Below are positions 1 through 32,661 of a stretch of 33,931 nt of DNA, in pieces. The DNA comes from an uncultured Burkholderiales bacterium (GTDB taxonomy: Bacteria; Pseudomonadota; Gammaproteobacteria; Burkholderiales; Burkholderiaceae_C). The position numbers and the translations under genes are program-made. The first letter of the stretch is position 1; each line of letters opens with the position of its first letter. Location of the stretch: the NCBI GenBank assembly GCA_937864005.1, contig CALMIL010000019.1, positions 1-33,931 on the forward strand, given 5' to 3'. Below the pieces are notes generated by a model. It had not been told where the DNA came from, ran no database searches, and saw only the letters and a list, made by a program, of their open reading frames with translations.

Positions 1-41
1 TGACGCACAATGCGCATGGCGCCGTCGCTTGCGAGGGCGCC
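1..41. other. Sequence left of first complete repeat: possible further spacer
   Basis: These 41 bases are GC-rich and do not look like an AT-rich leader. The first six bases, TGACGC, differ by one base from the repeat end TGAAGC, and the following 35 bases match spacer length. The array may therefore continue beyond the left edge, with a slightly altered repeat cut by the window. Chance similarity over six bases cannot be excluded. Confidence 0.4.
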
Positions 42-3000
42 GTTTTCCGGGGCTCGATGCCCCGGCCTCATTGAAGCAACGACCACGGCATTACGTGGCC
101 TGGCGAAGTGGACGTTTTCCGGGGCTCGATGCCCCGGCCTCATTGAAGCTTCGGCAAGGTCGTTCGCGCGGTGACCTTTGGGCGGGGTTTTCCGGGGCTC
201 GATGCCCCGGCCTCATTGAAGCGTAATTCGCGAGGGTCCATCGGCGTGCGCCGCGCCAGTTTTCCGGGGCTCGATGCCCCGGCCTCATTGAAGCGCCGCG
301 TCGAGCGCGTACCCAAGACGCATCGTTGCCGGTTTTCCGGGGCTCGATGCCCCGGCCTCATTGAAGCTCCAGCTCGCCCCACTCGTAGGCGCGCACGCCC
401 TGGGTTTTCCGGGGCTCGATGCCCCGGCCTCATTGAAGCGAGGTCTTGCCGCGTGGGCTGGCTGCCAGTGATGATGGTTTTCCGGGGCTCGATGCCCCGG
501 CCTCATTGAAGCGAGCACCCCGCCGGCCGCGGCGTAGGTCGCCAGCGCGTTTTCCGGGGCTCGATGCCCCGGCCTCATTGAAGCATCCAGATGCGTGCCC
601 AGCCCGTCGCATTCAACGGCGTTTTCCGGGGCTCGATGCCCCGGCCTCATTGAAGCAGCACCAGCATGCCGACGTTCTCAGCGTTGAAGGCGGTTTTCCG
701 GGGCTCGATGCCCCGGCCTCATTGAAGCCGGCATGAACACCCGCCCAAGCCGCGCAGAGCGCGCCGTTTTCCGGGGCTCGATGCCCCGGCCTCATTGAAG
801 CAGCAGCTCGATGCGCAGGTAATGCGTTTGCATCGCGTTTTCCGGGGCTCGATGCCCCGGCCTCATTGAAGCATGTTGTTCCACGCGCCGGCCGCGCCGT
901 TGCTGGCCGGTTTTCCGGGGCTCGATGCCCCGGCCTCATTGAAGCACGGCGATCTGCGCGCAAGCCTGCTCGATCGGGCCGGGTTTTCCGGGGCTCGATG
1001 CCCCGGCCTCATTGAAGCGCGACCGCCGTCTCGCGCCATCTCGCCCGCAAGTGGGTTTTCCGGGGCTCGATGCCCCGGCCTCATTGAAGCCACCATCGGC
1101 AGGCGCCGGCCGAACTGCTCGACCGGGTTTTCCGGGGCTCGATGCCCCGGCCTCATTGAAGCGCCTTGGCCTTGGCGTTGGCGTGAAGGCGATCAATGTT
1201 TTCCGGGGCTCGATGCCCCGGCCTCATTGAAGCGCGATGCGCATCATGCGATCAAGACGAAAGCCGAAGCGGTTTTCCGGGGCTCGATGCCCCGGCCTCA
1301 TTGAAGCGAGAATGCTGCACTTCACCGAACAGCAGGCCGCCGCAGGTTTTCCGGGGCTCGATGCCCCGGCCTCATTGAAGCCCCCGGAGGCGGTCGCGGG
1401 CCTTGGTGAGGTGTACACGGTTTTCCGGGGCTCGATGCCCCGGCCTCATTGAAGCCGCACGCGCAGATTAAATCGTCCCCGGAGTGCTTCATGTTTTCCG
1501 GGGCTCGATGCCCCGGCCTCATTGAAGCACGCTGCCGCGCTCGCCGGTGACACTATTGCGCGCATAGGTTTTCCGGGGCTCGATGCCCCGGCCTCATTGA
1601 AGCAGCGTCGCGGCTGCGTTCGGCGGCGCACTGCCGAGGTTTTCCGGGGCTCGATGCCCCGGCCTCATTGAAGCGCCGCCATCCGCGTTGTCGCCGAACA
1701 GTCGGCCGCCGTTTTCCGGGGCTCGATGCCCCGGCCTCATTGAAGCTCGTCGGCCGGGCGGATGCGCTTGCGCAGTGCAGGGTTTTCCGGGGCTCGATGC
1801 CCCGGCCTCATTGAAGCATCGTCGGCATTGACCCCGGCGTGAAAACCGGGTTGTTTTCCGGGGCTCGATGCCCCGGCCTCATTGAAGCCTGCGCAATGCT
1901 ACGGAGATGCGTATTTCTTCTGCCGTTTTCCGGGGCTCGATGCCCCGGCCTCATTGAAGCACGCCATGCCTGCGGAAGCACTCGATCATGTCGGCCGTTT
2001 CCCGGGGCTCGATGCCCCGGCCTCATTGAAGCCGCATCCAGCCGGCGCTATGCGAGCGAGACGACAGGTTTTCCGGGGCTCGATGCCCCGGCCTCATTGA
2101 AGCCCAGGAACGGCGCTGCGATGTCGATCGTGCGCGGTGGTTTTCCGGGGCTCGATGCCCCGGCCTCATTGAAGCCCAGTCGGTGAGGCGGTCTTCGCGC
2201 GCTTCGCAGTGTTTTCCGGGGCTCGATGCCCCGGCCTCATTGAAGCGTGAACTGTCATTTCGGCGCCTCCCGCGCTCTGTCAGTTTTCCGGGGCTCGATG
2301 CCCCGGCCTCATTGAAGCGGCCCTGGCGCCGGGCTGCAGCGGATAACCGATGGGGTTTTCCGGGGCTCGATGCCCCGGCCTCATTGAAGCGAGGATGCCA
2401 GGCTGCGCAAGTGGTTCGGCGCGCGCGTTTTCCGGGGCTCGATGCCCCGGCCTCATTGAAGCTCGCTCGCGCGTGGCCTTCACAACACGGCGCATTGTGG
2501 TTTTCCGGGGCTCGATGCCCCGGCCTCATTGAAGCGTCATCTCCTTCGTCATCTACTTCGTCAGAGTCAATGTTTTCCGGGGCTCGATGCCCCGGCCTCA
2601 TTGAAGCCATCCATCGATTCGAAGCTGCCGGCCGACTTCACAGCGTTTTCCGGGGCTCGATGCCCCGGCCTCATTGAAGCGACCTGTCGCTCGCCTGGGT
2701 CGCCGCGGTACGCGACGGTTTTCCGGGGCTCGATGCCCCGGCCTCATTGAAGCAGGCAGGCTCACATCGGCATTCGCCACTACGCCTTGCGCGTTTTCCG
2801 GGGCTCGATGCCCCGGCCTCATTGAAGCGCTACATGACGCAGCAGGGCTACCTCGCGGTCGGCCGTTTTCCGGGGCTCGATGCCCCGGCCTCATTGAAGC
2901 GAACAAGAGATCGTTCGTACTTTGGAGCGCGGGACGCGTTTTCCGGGGCTCGATGCCCCGGCCTCATTGAAGCGACAACATCCTGAACTTCGGCGGCGAG

Positions 3001-5857
3001 AAGGACAAGGTTTTCCGGGGCTCGATGCCCCGGCCTCATTGAAGCGTCTGCTTCGGTCGCATCTTCGTCGCTCAGTGACAGTTTTCCGGGGCTCGATGCC
3101 CCGGCCTCATTGAAGCCCGCTGGCCGTCGCCGCGCCGTAGTCGCCGCTGGCCGTTTTCCGGGGCTCGATGCCCCGGCCTCATTGAAGCCGCCGCGCCGTG
3201 CAGCGCATGCAGTGGCTCACCATCGTTTTCCGGGGCTCGATGCCCCGGCCTCATTGAAGCGGTGCGCTGAGCACGTTCCTTGCGGGGTTCCTCGCGAAGG
3301 TTTTCCGGGGCTCGATGCCCCGGCCTCATTGAAGCATGCCTATTTCGACGCCGCGATGGACGGTCCTGAAAGTTTTCCGGGGCTCGATGCCCCGGCCTCA
3401 TTGAAGCAGGTTGCCGTTGATCGTGTAGTTCCCTGCGCTCGGGAGTTTTCCGGGGCTCGATGCCCCGGCCTCATTGAAGCTGCAAGCGTCGTCTTGCCTT
3501 GCCCTACCGCCTTCGGTTTTCCGGGGCTCGATGCCCCGGCCTCATTGAAGCTCGCTCATGCCGCAGCCCTGCACCGCACCTGAATCGTTTTCCGGGGCTC
3601 GATGCCCCGGCCTCATTGAAGCCAACGTCATCGGTCTTCTTGGCCTTGCTGTTCTTCGTTTTCCGGGGCTCGATGCCCCGGCCTCATTGAAGCGGCACCC
3701 GCGAAGACCTCGCCAATGCCGCATTCGAGGTTTTCCGGGGCTCGATGCCCCGGCCTCATTGAAGCGCCTCGGCCTCGCGCATGACGTGCTCCAGATTGCG
3801 CGTTTTCCGGGGCTCGATGCCCCGGCCTCATTGAAGCAAGCGCGCCGAGTACGGCTCCGGCGACGAGGCCACGTTTTCCGGGGCTCGATGCCCCGGCCTC
3901 ATTGAAGCCAGACCGTCTGAATCGTCTCCCCGAGCGCGACGGCCAGGTTTTCCGGGGCTCGATGCCCCGGCCTCATTGAAGCATGTGGGGCTTCCTCGTG
4001 ATGCTCTTCGGCGTTGGCTGTTTTCCGGGGCTCGATGCCCCGGCCTCATTGAAGCCCGGGGTTGCCCTGGTAGTCCTTCGGAACGATGCTGGTTTTCCGG
4101 GGCTCGATGCCCCGGCCTCATTGAAGCCAAGCCGCGCGGCGCTTCAACACGGTCGCCTGCGGGTTTTCCGGGGCTCGACGCCCCGGCCTCATTGAAGCTG
4201 TGCCGTTGGCGACCGCAACATTCAGCGCACCGCCGCGTTTTCCGGGGCTCGATGCCCCGGCCTCATTGAAGCCGCGTGTTGCTCGCGACAGATCTTGTCG
4301 TGACGGTAAAGTTTTCCGGGGCTCGATGCCCCGGCCTCATTGAAGCCAACTCATCGGCCAAGCAGGCGGCGGATCGTGGAGGTTTTCCGGGGCTCGATGC
4401 CCCGGCCTCATTGAAGCTTGTAGATTTCCCACTTGATCTTGGCCTCTGCCCGGTTTTCCGGGGCTCGATGCCCCGGCCTCATTGAAGCTGGCGGTCCGCT
4501 TTCGAGCTTCGCAACTGCTCGCTCGTTTTCCGGGGCTCGATGCCCCGGCCTCATTGAAGCAACGCATCGACATCGGCTTGAGTGACTGCCATAGTGCGTT
4601 TTCCGGGGCTCGATGCCCCGGCCTCATTGAAGCACTGTCCACTGGCCTGCAATCGGCTGGGGCGAGCCGGTTTTCCGGGGCTCGATGCCCCGGCCTCATT
4701 GAAGCGACGGCGTCAACCTCGTCGACAACCTGCCGGCGCGCGTTTTCCGGGGCTCGATGCCCCGGCCTCATTGAAGCGTCACCCCCGCATGAGCATCAAC
4801 TTCAGCACGGCCGGTTTTCCGGGGCTCGATGCCCCGGCCTCATTGAAGCTTGAAGCAGTCGATGCGCAGCCGCCCGCCCGGCTGCGGTTTTCCGGGGCTC
4901 GATGCCCCGGCCTCATTGAAGCACCCCGGCGCAAGCGGCGCACGTGCCGCTGTCGGGCGTTTTCCGGGGCTCGATGCCCCGGCCTCATTGAAGCGCGGGC
5001 CAACGGCCCGTCGGCGGCACGAATTCGGGTTTTCCGGGGCTCGATGCCCCGGCCTCATTGAAGCACGCCGGGGAGTGCGTTGATGAGCACGGCTGAGGCC
5101 AGTTTTCCGGGGCTCGATGCCCCGGCCTCATTGAAGCTAGACACCTACGCCGACGACCTGCGCACGACGGCGGGTTTTCCGGGGCTCGATGCCCCGGCCT
5201 CATTGAAGCAACGGCCAGCGGCTCAGGTTCCTGCCGCGCTGCGAGGTTTTCCGGGGCTCGATGCCCCGGCCTCATTGAAGCGGTACGTCGGCGGGCAGGC
5301 GCCCTGAGTCGAGGGCGGTTTTCCGGGGCTCGATGCCCCGGCCTCATTGAAGCGAGGCCGCTGGATTGCTGCTCGTCGCTCACCTCGTGCTCGTTTTCCG
5401 GGGCTCGATGCCCCGGCCTCATTGAAGCATGCTCACGGTCACACCCCACACCAGCATGTCATGTTTTCCGGGGCTCGATGCCCCGGCCTCATTGAAGCGG
5501 CGTGCCTGGCATCTGCACCGTGCCGCTGCCCCAGGTTTTCCGGGGCTCGATGCCCCGGCCTCATTGAAGCCGCCTCCATGATGGCGGCGTCAAGAATCGC
5601 CTTCGGGTTTTCCGGGGCTCGATGCCCCGGCCTCATTGAAGCGTTTCGCACACATCCGGCTGCGGTTCCGGCTCCACGTTTTCCGGGGCTCGATGCCCCG
5701 ACCTCATTGAAGCGGGGGCATCCTTCCCGAGGTCGCGTCGTTGCTTGCGGTTTTCCGGGGCTCGATACCCCGGCCTCATTGAAGCGCCATGCCGTGCGCG
5801 GTACTTGTTGCGACTCCCGGAGTTTTCCTGGGCTCGATGCCCCGGCCTCATTGAAGG
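42..5857 (+). CRISPR. CRISPR array, 81 repeats / 80 spacers
   Basis: A 36-bp repeat starting GTTTTCC and ending ATTGAAGC recurs 81 times with start-to-start distances of 71-74 bp (first at 42, last at 5822), giving 80 spacers of 35-38 bp. Each repeat holds a 7-bp stem CCGGGGC/GCCCCGG around a 5-base loop, followed by a 12-base tail. Nearly all copies are identical. Variants sit at 2001 (T to C), 4179 (T to C in the loop), 5701 (G to A), 5767 (G to A in the loop), and 5829 plus 5857 in the last copy. Clustering of variants in the last three repeats marks the right end as the old, distal end, so transcription is inferred to run left to right from a leader outside the window. A 36-bp hairpin repeat with an ATTGAAGC-type handle is seen in several type I (for example I-G) and type III systems; the subtype cannot be fixed because no cas gene is present. 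Confidence 0.99.
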
Positions 5858-5900
5858 CAATTCCGAAGCGTTGCGCGGCAGATGAGGCTGCCGAGGTCTT

Positions 5901-5929
5901 TCGCCAATCGGGCCGGCCGATGCTAAGAT
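5901..5929 (+). promoter_or_regulatory. Weak sigma-70-like promoter candidate
   Basis: TCGCCA at 5901-5906 and TAAGAT at 5924-5929 are separated by 17 bp, about 50 bp upstream of the small gene at 5982. Each box matches 4 of 6 consensus bases. It is the only plausible promoter in the 124-bp gap after the CRISPR array, but weak matches like this arise often by chance. Confidence 0.3.
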
Positions 5930-5981
5930 TTTCCGCAGGCCGCACTGTGGCGCCGGATCATTCACTTCGCGAGGACGCATC

Positions 5982-6254
5982 ATGAGCCTGTTCGAAACCA
6001 TGAAGGGGGTGCAGATCCCCACCACCGACGAAGAGAGAAACCAGCTCGTCATCACCGAGGGGTCGAACGGGTTCTGGAACTACCACCTGTCGCGGCGCGT
6101 GAACCACATGCGGGCGCTGTGCGGTACCGCGACGCTGCCGACGGCGCTGCCGGTCTCGGCCTGGGGCGCACCGGCGGAAGAGGGGCTGCCCAAGGCGCCC
6201 ACTTACTGCGAGAAGTGCGCGCGCGCCGCCTGGCCCGAGAAGTACGCCGGCTAG
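5982..6254 (+). CDS. Small Cys-pair protein of unknown function (90 aa)
   Basis: I do not recognise this family. The 90-residue soluble protein has His35 and His42, Cys47 in the string MRALCG, and a Cys76-x-x-Cys79 pair near the C-terminus (YCEKC), a layout that could bind a metal such as zinc. Aromatic residues cluster around 32-34 (FWNY). There is no signal peptide or membrane segment. The ATG at 5982 has a GAGG-type ribosome site eight bases upstream (GCGAGGACGC). It stands alone, 124 bp beyond the end of the CRISPR array and 211 bp before the cytochrome gene. Nothing in the sequence ties it to CRISPR function; proximity is the only link. It is probably a real gene because of the start site, the composition and the ordered Cys/His spacing. 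Confidence 0.72.
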   Translation: MSLFETMKGVQIPTTDEERNQLVITEGSNGFWNYHLSRRVNHMRALCGTATLPTALPVSAWGAPAEEGLPKAPTYCEKCARAAWPEKYAG

Positions 6255-18413: not shown

Positions 18414-24212
<5,799 letters not shown>

Positions 24213-25159: not shown

Positions 25160-25708
25160 TCAGGCCGTGGCGCCGCGCCGCTTCGCCCGGATGTGCAGCA
25201 TCCCGCCGGCCTGGACGAGGTCGATGCGCTCGATCATCAGGTTGGCGATGCGGTGGCGCTCGACCGGGAACAACAACGGGTCCCGGACGTCGTTGAGGCG
25301 CCCCATCGCCATCACAACGCCGGCCTCGTCGATTTGCGCGCCGCTCTTGTTCTGGTTCTGCTGGACGTGGCGCACCACCGAGGCGATGGACTCGGGGCTG
25401 GTCAGCACGCCGCGAATGCGCGCCACCACCGCCGCCTCGATCTCGGCGGCGGGCAGACGGTCGTGGTTCTTGCCCGGCGCGCCGAAACGGCTCTCCGACT
25501 TGGCGACGTAGTACTGGTACTTGCGCCCGTTCTTGCGCGAGCAGATCGCACACATCCGCTCGCCCGAGGGCGCGTACAGCAGACCGCGCAGCAGCGCGTC
25601 GTTGCGCGACCTGATCTTGGTGTCCACCCCGCGCGCGTGGCTGTCGCACGCCAGCACCGCATGAACCTTGTCCCACAGCTCGCGGTCGAAGCTCGGCCAG
25701 TCGCGCAC
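25160..25708 (-). pseudogene. Serine recombinase C-terminal fragment
   Basis: The minus-strand frame of 182 residues starts [19 protein letters not shown], followed by ALLRGLLYAPSGERM and the zinc-ribbon segment CAICSRKNGRKYQYYV. This is the end of the Recombinase domain and the zinc beta-ribbon of large serine site-specific recombinases (phage integrase/transposon type). The catalytic resolvase domain with its serine is missing. The frame stops matching at 25708, where a uvrA-like fragment begins on the other strand. Translation from a GTG at 25708 is possible but would give an inactive protein. Confidence 0.82.
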
Positions 25709-25723
25709 CCCTCACGGGGCACG

Positions 25724-26020
25724 GCCCCGCATCGAGCATCTGCTGCAACTGCTCGAGGACGTCGCCCTCGGCTGCCTGACGCTCGGCCAGCCGTCGCCGA
25801 CCTTGAGCGGCGGCGAGGCGCAGCGCATCAAGCTGGTCAGCGAACTCGTCAAGGTCCGCGACGACGTGACGCGCCGCAGCCAGAAATCGCCGCACACGCT
25901 CTCTGTCATCGACCTCGGCCCCGGGGGCGGCGACGCGGGCGGGCGCGCCGGAGCAGGTGGTGGCCGCGGGCAGCCACCACACCGGCATCGCGCTGGCGCG
26001 CGGTGCTGGCGCGGCAGTGG
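25724..26020 (+). pseudogene. uvrA-like 3'-end fragment with internal deletions
   Basis: Bases 25724-25900 closely follow uvrA 23753-23932 ([20 protein letters not shown], then [14 protein letters not shown]). The match then jumps over the Walker B/H-loop region to uvrA 24072 ([13 protein letters not shown]), and misses a further short piece before the PEQVVAAGS end at about 26020. The signature motif is kept but the ATPase is broken, so this is debris. It shares GCGCCGGAGCAGGTGGT (25945-25961) with the fragment at 32402, whereas the intact uvrA differs there. Confidence 0.85.
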
Positions 26021-26472: not shown

Positions 26473-27255
26473 TCAGGTCTTCTTCACAGCGCGCCGACGC
26501 ACCGCACCGGCGCCGAGCAGCGCGAGGCCGACCAGCGCCAGCGAACTCGGCTCGGGCACGTTGCTGATTTCCCTGACCAGCTTGGCCTCGATCGCGCGGC
26601 CGAAGTCGTTGAAGTTGGCTGCCGCCATCACGAAGCCGTTGCCGCCCTTGACGTTGTTCGTGTAGTAGGTGAGCAAATTGTTCTCACCCAGGATCGGCAG
26701 GCCGTTGATCGCATCGACACCCGCGGTGATGGCGGCGTTGCGGCCGCCGCCGGCTGCAACGAAGCTGGCACTGTCGTTGTCGGCGCCGTCGCCCGAGACA
26801 TCGATGACCTGGCGCAGTGACTCGAAGCCGTTGGCGGTGCCGCCGACTTCGGTGCCGAAGCCGGTGTACATCTTGCCGATCGCGTCCTGGATCGCCGTGT
26901 TGCCCGAGAAGGCGCGGCTCGTGCTATTGATCGCGGCGGCGAAGCTGTTGGCGCTCGCCGTGTCATTGATCAGCGTCCAGCCGACCTGGATGCTTTGCTG
27001 GTTCCGACCCGACCATTCGATGTAGGTGACGGCGATGCTGCCAAGCTGGCTGGCCGCAATGGCGCTCTGCACGGCAGCGCTCTGGAACGCCTGCACGTAG
27101 CCTTGCTTCTGCAGGTTGTACTCGGTGCTGTCGACGCTGCCGGACACGTCGACCAGCAGCATCAACTCGAGGCCTACCGACGTGGCCGATGCTTGACCGC
27201 CGGCCAGCAGCGCGGCAGCGCCCAGGACGGACATCGCATATTTCTTCAGTCTCAT
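26473..27255 (-). CDS. DUF1194/VWA-like PEP-CTERM protein
   Basis: This 260-residue exported protein has an N-terminal signal peptide ([21 protein letters not shown], cut near residue 24). A VWA-type domain (DUF1194) follows with the metal-site motif DVSGSVDS (about 36-43) and a second DVSGDGADN. The C-terminal PEP-CTERM tag is [20 protein letters not shown] plus RRR. PEP-CTERM proteins are cut by an exosortase (EpsH/XrtA) at the inner membrane and released to the surface, often with exopolysaccharide. The start at 27255 has GGGGGAAA upstream; the longer frame would put non-signal residues first. It is divergent from prsT and carries its own sigma-54-like promoter and terminator. Confidence 0.9.
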
Positions 27256-27305
27256 GGTTTCCCCCAGGTGGTGATAGGCAACACAAATCGTGTCGGAATA
27301 TGCAA

Positions 27306-27321
27306 TGCACAATCCATGCCA
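27306..27321 (-). promoter_or_regulatory. Sigma-54-like promoter of the DUF1194 PEP-CTERM gene
   Basis: On the minus strand TGGCATGGATTGTGCA has GG and GC 12 bp apart and differs from the TGGCACG-N4-TTGC consensus at two positions (C to T, T to G). The predicted start of transcription is about 40 nt before the ATG at 27255. PEP-CTERM genes in related bacteria are known to be under RpoN/PrsR control. Confidence 0.65.
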
Positions 27322-27624
27322 GAGGGCCATGTGATTGATTTACAAAGGCTTTCTTCTTGCTGGTGGGTCATTGACGGGGGTTTCCGTAAGAAAGATCGAC
27401 ACCCCCCGAACAGGGGGTCAAGGAGCTTTCGAGACACCACCTACCCGGCGCTTCCGCAGTTTGAAGTGGATTCGCACATACCCGCAAATGAGGGGTGTGC
27501 AAGCTTCGCATTTGCGGCAATCCGTCATGCGCGCCGATGTCGCGCGCGGGCGTCTTGCCTTCATACTGCCGGGACTCGACATGTGCCGTGGCGAACTGCG
27601 GCAGCCTCTGCCAGGGACGAATCC
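27322..27624. other. Divergent intergenic region with C/G-block inverted repeats
   Basis: The gap between the two PEP-CTERM-system genes has no coding sequence I can support. GGGGGT at about 27376 pairs with ACCCCC at about 27402. The block GACACCCCCC / GGGGGTC around 27399-27420 forms another inverted repeat. These may be regulator sites. I found no clear -24/-12 or -35/-10 pair for prsT. Confidence 0.4.
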
Positions 27625-32336: not shown

Positions 32337-32470
32337 AGAGCATCGGCGACGTGCTGAACCCCGAAGGCGGCGATGCGGGCGGGCTCATCGTCGCCGCGGG
32401 CGCGCCGGAGCAGGTGGTCGCCGCGGGCAGCCACACCGGCGACGCGCTGCGCGCGGTGCTGGCGCGGCGT
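32337..32470 (+). pseudogene. uvrA-like 3'-end fragment, second copy
   Basis: GAGCATCGGCGACGTGCTGAA (from about 32338) matches uvrA near 23691-23711. The sequence then jumps directly to the part matching uvrA from about 24084 ([14 protein letters not shown], then [20 protein letters not shown]). About 370 bp are missing between. It shares GCGCCGGAGCAGGTGGT (32402-32418) with the fragment at 25945, against a different sequence in intact uvrA. Confidence 0.82.
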
Positions 32471-32661
32471 GAGTTCGGCGACCGGGACCGCCACAAGGCA
32501 GACAGCTGAAAGCAGGTCCCTGCGGGCGGGAGCTCTGGATGGCGTTTGCGACGCAGTGCGCGGCTCGAGACCGCCCGAACGCACAAGCTCAGGAGCGACT
32601 CCTGCAGATACCTGTCCTCGTTGGAAAGGGCTCAGATTTGTTCATAAGGCGAAAGTGCATT
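32471..32661. other. Gene-free interval
   Basis: No gene or relic is recognisable in this stretch between the uvrA fragment and the tandem repeats. It should contain the promoter of the AbrB/VapC operon, but no convincing -35/-10 pair stands out. Confidence 0.4.

Follow-up and report, generated by a model that had tools for sequence, protein, structure and literature searches.

A long, seemingly orphan CRISPR array in a Burkholderiales draft genome very probably belongs to a type I-G system whose cas operon was assembled on another contig

The window, by which we mean the whole stretch of 33,931 nt that was analysed, comprises the entire contig C19 of a 281-contig draft genome of an uncultured Burkholderiales bacterium. 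Its left end is occupied by a CRISPR array with 81 copies of a 36-nt repeat, GTTTTCCGGGGCTCGATGCCCCGGCCTCATTGAAGC, as detected by a repeat scan (Table 1). Seventy-six copies are identical; the variants are no. 28 (position 1997), no. 58 (4163) and nos. 79-81 (5678, 5750 and 5822), with two changes in the last of these. The 80 spacers are all different, no 14-mer being common to any two, and measure 34-39 nt. The initial annotation of this DNA, made from the sequence alone, had given spacer lengths of 35-38; its count of 81 repeats and 80 distinct spacers was borne out, as was its description of a nearly uniform array with variants in the last three repeats. In the whole genome, 81 copies of the repeat were found, all on one strand of C19.

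Eighty of the 81 repeats score above the gathering score of Rfam family RF01330 (CRISPR-DR16), over the full model. Folding gave a 7-bp hairpin (MFE -15.9 kcal/mol, z = -2.2), and the repeat, tested for the I-G kind, shows the length of 36 nt, the hairpin, the 4-nt spacing and the 8-nt ATTGAAGC handle (handle rule from PMC9638904). In a metagenome survey, arrays had on average 12.7 spacers (SD 14.2, maximum 1,131; PMC8026048), and 6 of 105 contigs with the same repeat type as ours carry at least 81 repeats within the stretches examined. The array of 80 spacers is long, though not exceptional.

Table 1 Features of the array and its immediate flanks in the window
Feature	Position	Strand	Evidence
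CRISPR leader 3' end (most likely), truncated by contig start	1..41	+	PWM score, identity to leader of the relative G298
77-mer of 41 nt leader and repeat 1, of the same length as the assembly k-mer; the assembly graph probably branches here	1..77	+	77-nt overlaps
CRISPR array, 81 repeats of 36 nt and 80 unique spacers of 34-39 nt	42..5857	+	Repeat scan, Rfam
Leader-proximal repeat 1, with the consensus sequence: hairpin of 7 bp, 4 nt, 8-nt 5' handle ATTGAAGC	42..77	+	Fold; cleavage site from PMC9638904
Spacer 5, similar to phage VapE-like primase/helicase gene (28-31/36 nt)	368..403	+	Sequence matches
Last three repeats, point changes in each: trailer (oldest) end	5678..5857	+	Repeat scan
Unique sequence 3' of the array, without further repeat, up to a small ORF (5982-6254)	5858..5981	.	

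Other parts of the window contain a number of features of separate interest. In a UvrA-like ORF of 1,932 aa (18414-24212), about twice the usual length of UvrA, several motifs recur internally, in as many as four copies. Fragments similar to its C-terminal part lie at 25724-25973 (87% over 190 nt) and 32345-32474 (90% over 116 nt), and a short zinc-ribbon-like recombinase piece (PF13408, just below the cut-off; 25160-25708, minus strand), possibly a mobile-element remnant, is located between the uvrA-like sequences. A toxin of the ParE type and a putative antitoxin (PF05016 and PF09720; 16045-16685), a PIN-domain protein (PF01850; 32971-33366) and a DUF1194 protein with a PEP-CTERM sorting motif (26473-27330, minus strand) are also encoded, and upstream of the DUF1194 gene a long TPR-like ORF on the plus strand starts at 26995.

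No cas gene was found within the window, as the initial annotation had stated. Type I-G effector genes are present on contig C226 of the same assembly. Within the window's own genome, matches to the Csb1 and Csb2 families were confined to C226. The end of this contig encodes a WYL regulator, cas3g, cas8g2, csb1 and csb2, in this order and in one direction, followed by a gene for a PIN-type toxin on the opposite strand (labelled by eye and by the matching region of a relative, without a family match) and by the contig end. Measured against the NCBIfam curated type I-G cut-offs, Cas3g (TIGR02621; L150:5497-8217, L150 being a stretch of C226) reached 614 bits versus 400 and has an HD region near the C-terminus, Cas8g2 (TIGR04106) reached 216 versus 125, Csb1/Cas7g (TIGR02570) 139 versus 38, with PF09617 at E 1.8e-40, and Csb2, a Cas5-Cas6 fusion (TIGR02165), 272 versus 45. 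PADLOC made the same calls, and the effector operon is free of stop codons. By these family matches, the cas set on C226 is classified as type I-G, of the variant with Cas8g2. We also considered an orphan array without any effector and rejected it, given Csb1, Csb2, Cas3g and Cas8g2 on C226. Elsewhere on the same contig (L150:97-4188, or C226:33096-37187), a ribonucleotide-reductase-like ORF of 1,363 aa was recognised by eye, with an apparent intein insertion starting with CVTADTWIATSQGARQVRELVG and ending with VHAFDANGLVAHN, likewise seen by eye.

A loosened repeat scan of species genomes detected the repeat in many Proteobacteria and a few other organisms, and typing of the flanks of those loci returned recurrent neighbours, including Csb1- and Csb2-like proteins, nearly all of them left of the array in the reading direction of the window. 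In relatives, the cas operon and the leader lie to the left of arrays read in the same direction, in agreement with the first assignment of the old end to the right and of the leader to the left.

The likely arrangement of the missing part can be read from G298, a genome of the same family, which carries WYL-cas3-cas8g-csb1-csb2-toxin region-cas4/1 fusion-cas2-leader-array on one contig. In an alignment with G298, the end of C226 lies ~2.7 kb ahead of the first G298 repeat, so that C226 breaks off at the point where cas4/1 would be expected to begin. C19 opens immediately ahead of repeat 1, and its start and the end of C226 have matching directions. Since the genes shared with C226 are followed in G298 by cas4/1, cas2, the leader and the array, a gap of ~2.6 kb very probably separates C226 from C19; the order in G298 is the sole support for this join, which has no directly linking sequence. 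This gap most likely holds the cas4/1 fusion, cas2 and the remaining leader sequence, and the missing piece, including two 77-nt overlaps, is expected to measure ~2.8 kb.

No Cas1 of any type was found in the assembly sequence examined, in which the five contigs shorter than 3,000 bp that were read (C3, C8, C26, C35 and C37 of this genome, G000) consist entirely of N; calls of absence for small clusters in this genome are unreliable. Because the expected bridging contig of ~2.8 kb falls within this masked size range, the absence of Cas1 says little. Taken at face value, it would fit a true orphan array, still used by the effector on C226 but frozen after the loss of cas4/1 and cas2. We consider such a loss very improbable, as the masking affects just the size of the expected piece, C226 ends precisely where cas4/1 should begin, the leader side of the array is uniform and the contig break described below fits variation at the newest spacer. 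It is thus highly probable that the array in the window is the memory of an ordinary type I-G CRISPR-Cas system, with its effectors on C226 and its adaptation genes most likely in the gap. Its orphan appearance very probably arose when the assembly broke between the array and the cas genes, leaving the latter on another contig.

Within the genus, csb1 was found in one of five genomes, the window's own, and the Cas4g/Cas1g cut-off was passed by 3 of 401 genomes of the family. The system was therefore probably acquired horizontally.

The 41 bases before repeat 1 deserve special attention, as window position 1 is also base 1 of contig C19 and the assembly has no sequence further to the left. Bases 1-6 read TGACGC, as originally reported, and bases 1-41 had been taken for another spacer behind the end of a near-repeat, with the array running well beyond the window. 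We scored the 41 nt before repeat 1 with a position weight matrix (PWM) made from 60 distinct leader ends of I-G loci. Bases 1-41 obtained 6.2 bits versus a leave-one-out leader median of 8.3, and 60% of the leaders score equally high or higher. The same score was attained by 4 of 2404 spacer contexts from other arrays, by 1 of the 80 spacer contexts of the window and by 44 of 20000 shuffles. Without gaps, bases 1-41 are identical at 24-25 of 41 positions to three leaders, namely those of G298 (25/41), Rubrivivax SJ592 and Burkholderiales UWPOB_RUBRI1; none of 2,484 controls matched the three at this level, and two reached 25 for any one leader. The motif CACAAT, which may represent a -10-like box, occupies the offset that it has in the leaders of G298 and of Rubrivivax-type relatives.

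The evidence against a leader comes from TGACGC itself, which agrees with the repeat end TGAAGC at five of six positions, a likeness of which none of the 60 leaders reaches even 4/6. If these six bases were the end of a slightly mutated repeat, bases 7-41 would form a spacer of normal length (35 nt) and the array would run on leftward. The leader-side repeats are otherwise perfect, and a changed newest repeat is therefore unlikely; leader likeness of this degree was, moreover, matched by only 4 of 2404 spacer contexts, and no control equalled the identity to the three Burkholderiales leaders. We rejected the leftward extension on these leader statistics and regard it as improbable. Judged by sequence likeness, bases 1-41 very probably form the 3'-terminal part of a type I-G leader, and the array is for this reason probably complete on the left. 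Under the refutation rule of the initial annotation, a leader immediately before position 42 overturns the idea of an array extending well beyond the window, whereas the assigned orientation stands.

The point at which the contig starts is informative in itself. Forty contigs were read from their starts (31 in full, of which five are masked). All three true overlaps of contig ends measured exactly 77 nt, one of them being that of the C19 right end with the start of C5, which establishes that the assembly was built at k=77. The distance from the start of C19 to the first base of spacer 1 is likewise 77 nt (41 of leader and 36 of repeat). Such a contig start arises in a de Bruijn graph when a shared 77-mer continues into different bases. 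That C19 begins exactly k nucleotides before spacer 1 suggests a fork of the assembly graph after repeat 1, with strains differing in their newest spacer. Newly acquired spacers are inserted where leader and repeat meet (PMC10504553, on type I-G). The leader contig of a relative (L023/L238) terminates precisely with the final base of repeat 1; contig breaks at repeat 1 were compared in other genomes as well, in a sample of mixed assemblers.

From the contig break, recent spacer acquisition appears reasonably likely, and we lean towards reading the boundary as a trace of live immunity, where a k=77 assembly stopped at leader and repeat 1 and the newest spacers of the cells would differ. The start of C19 may instead be a coincidence caused by a coverage gap or a leader SNP, a possibility that we rate as lower but take seriously and that concerns the claim of activity only, not the identity of the array. 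It is a single contig end, and a random break within the array would be in register in ~1/72 of cases; against coincidence, the value of k comes from three independent exact overlaps, and the relative's leader contig, too, ends at the last base of repeat 1. Register with k=77 would equally be expected of a fork at a repeat/spacer boundary inside a longer array, which is a point for the leftward extension dismissed above. The active system proposed in the initial annotation is plausible, with a stop-free effector operon in the genome and a contig break that suggests variation of the newest spacer. If newest-spacer variation is indeed the cause, screening draft genomes for k-exact contig ends at repeat 1 could reveal, without recourse to reads, which arrays continue to grow and, were the break general, would offer an inexpensive indicator of recent spacer acquisition.

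The targets of the array were sought in several collections. No full protospacer, from which the TTN PAM of type I-G and interference might be judged, was found in phages (80 spacers and bases 7-41 searched), in plasmids (spacers 1-54) or in viral contigs (four exact patterns, from spacers 25, 5, 1 and 39). In relatives, searched with spacers 1-40, matches were mostly partial, GC-rich or in conserved genes, and the sole lead to a phage gene came from spacer 5. This spacer matches a VapE-domain primase/helicase gene at 31 of 36 positions in a relative's genome and at 28-30 of 36 in two IMG/VR phages, with the first 20 nt exact. Because the matched stretch encodes a conserved motif, the match indicates the gene family and not necessarily the donor phage. 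Translated spacers 25 and 48 contain IVGIDPGVKTG and KAVGQGKTTLA, which may point to an RuvC-like and a P-loop protein, respectively. Spacers compared with their own genome gave no convincing self-target, the one weak partial match being that of spacer 15 on C246 (E 0.006).

By analogy with characterised I-G systems, the array would be transcribed from left to right, from a leader whose last 41 nt are bases 1-41, and Csb2 would cut each repeat 4 nt beyond the hairpin to give crRNAs with the ATTGAAGC handle. These would guide Csb1, Cas8g2 and Csb2 together with Cas3 to invading DNA, the effector genes being supplied from C226 of the same genome.

Overall, we interpret the locus as an ordinary, long and probably complete type I-G array, a known kind of system whose cas operon was separated from it by assembly. 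An apparent orphan array thereby becomes a normal, subtype-assigned system, with its cas genes in the same assembly and the break at the site where an active array varies most, and provides an example of the false orphans that draft assemblies can produce. As to the repeats, nothing notable distinguishes them from Rfam RF01330 (CRISPR-DR16).

One of the closest known systems is the G298 locus (L149), which has the same succession of genes, with WYL and a homologous toxin region among them, and a leader with 25/41 identical positions; its repeat differs from that of the window at a few bases outside the stem. Unlike in the window's genome, the G298 locus is intact on one contig, with cas4/1 and cas2 present and at least 52 repeats. 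The window's repeat type is also present in Thioalkalivibrio sulfidiphilus ALJ17 (L076), which is conspecific with HL-EbGr7, the strain used as biochemical model (PMC9638904). In the T. sulfidiphilus I-G system, Csb2 cuts 4 nt beyond the hairpin and leaves an 8-nt handle, and toxin-antitoxin genes lie between csb2 and cas4/1 (PMC9638904). Common to both systems are the 36-nt repeat with the 3' end CCTCATTGAAGC and a hairpin separated by 4 nt from the 8-nt handle, as well as cas3, csb1, csb2 and toxin-antitoxin genes placed between csb2 and cas4/1 (PMC9638904), the latter being an expected gene in the genome studied here. The large subunit differs, being Cas8g2 (GSU0052/Csb3-like) in the window's genome and Csx17/Cas8g in T. 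sulfidiphilus (PMC9638904). In the genome studied here, in contrast to T. sulfidiphilus, cas4/1 was not seen, and the array is very probably parted from its cas genes only by an assembly gap.
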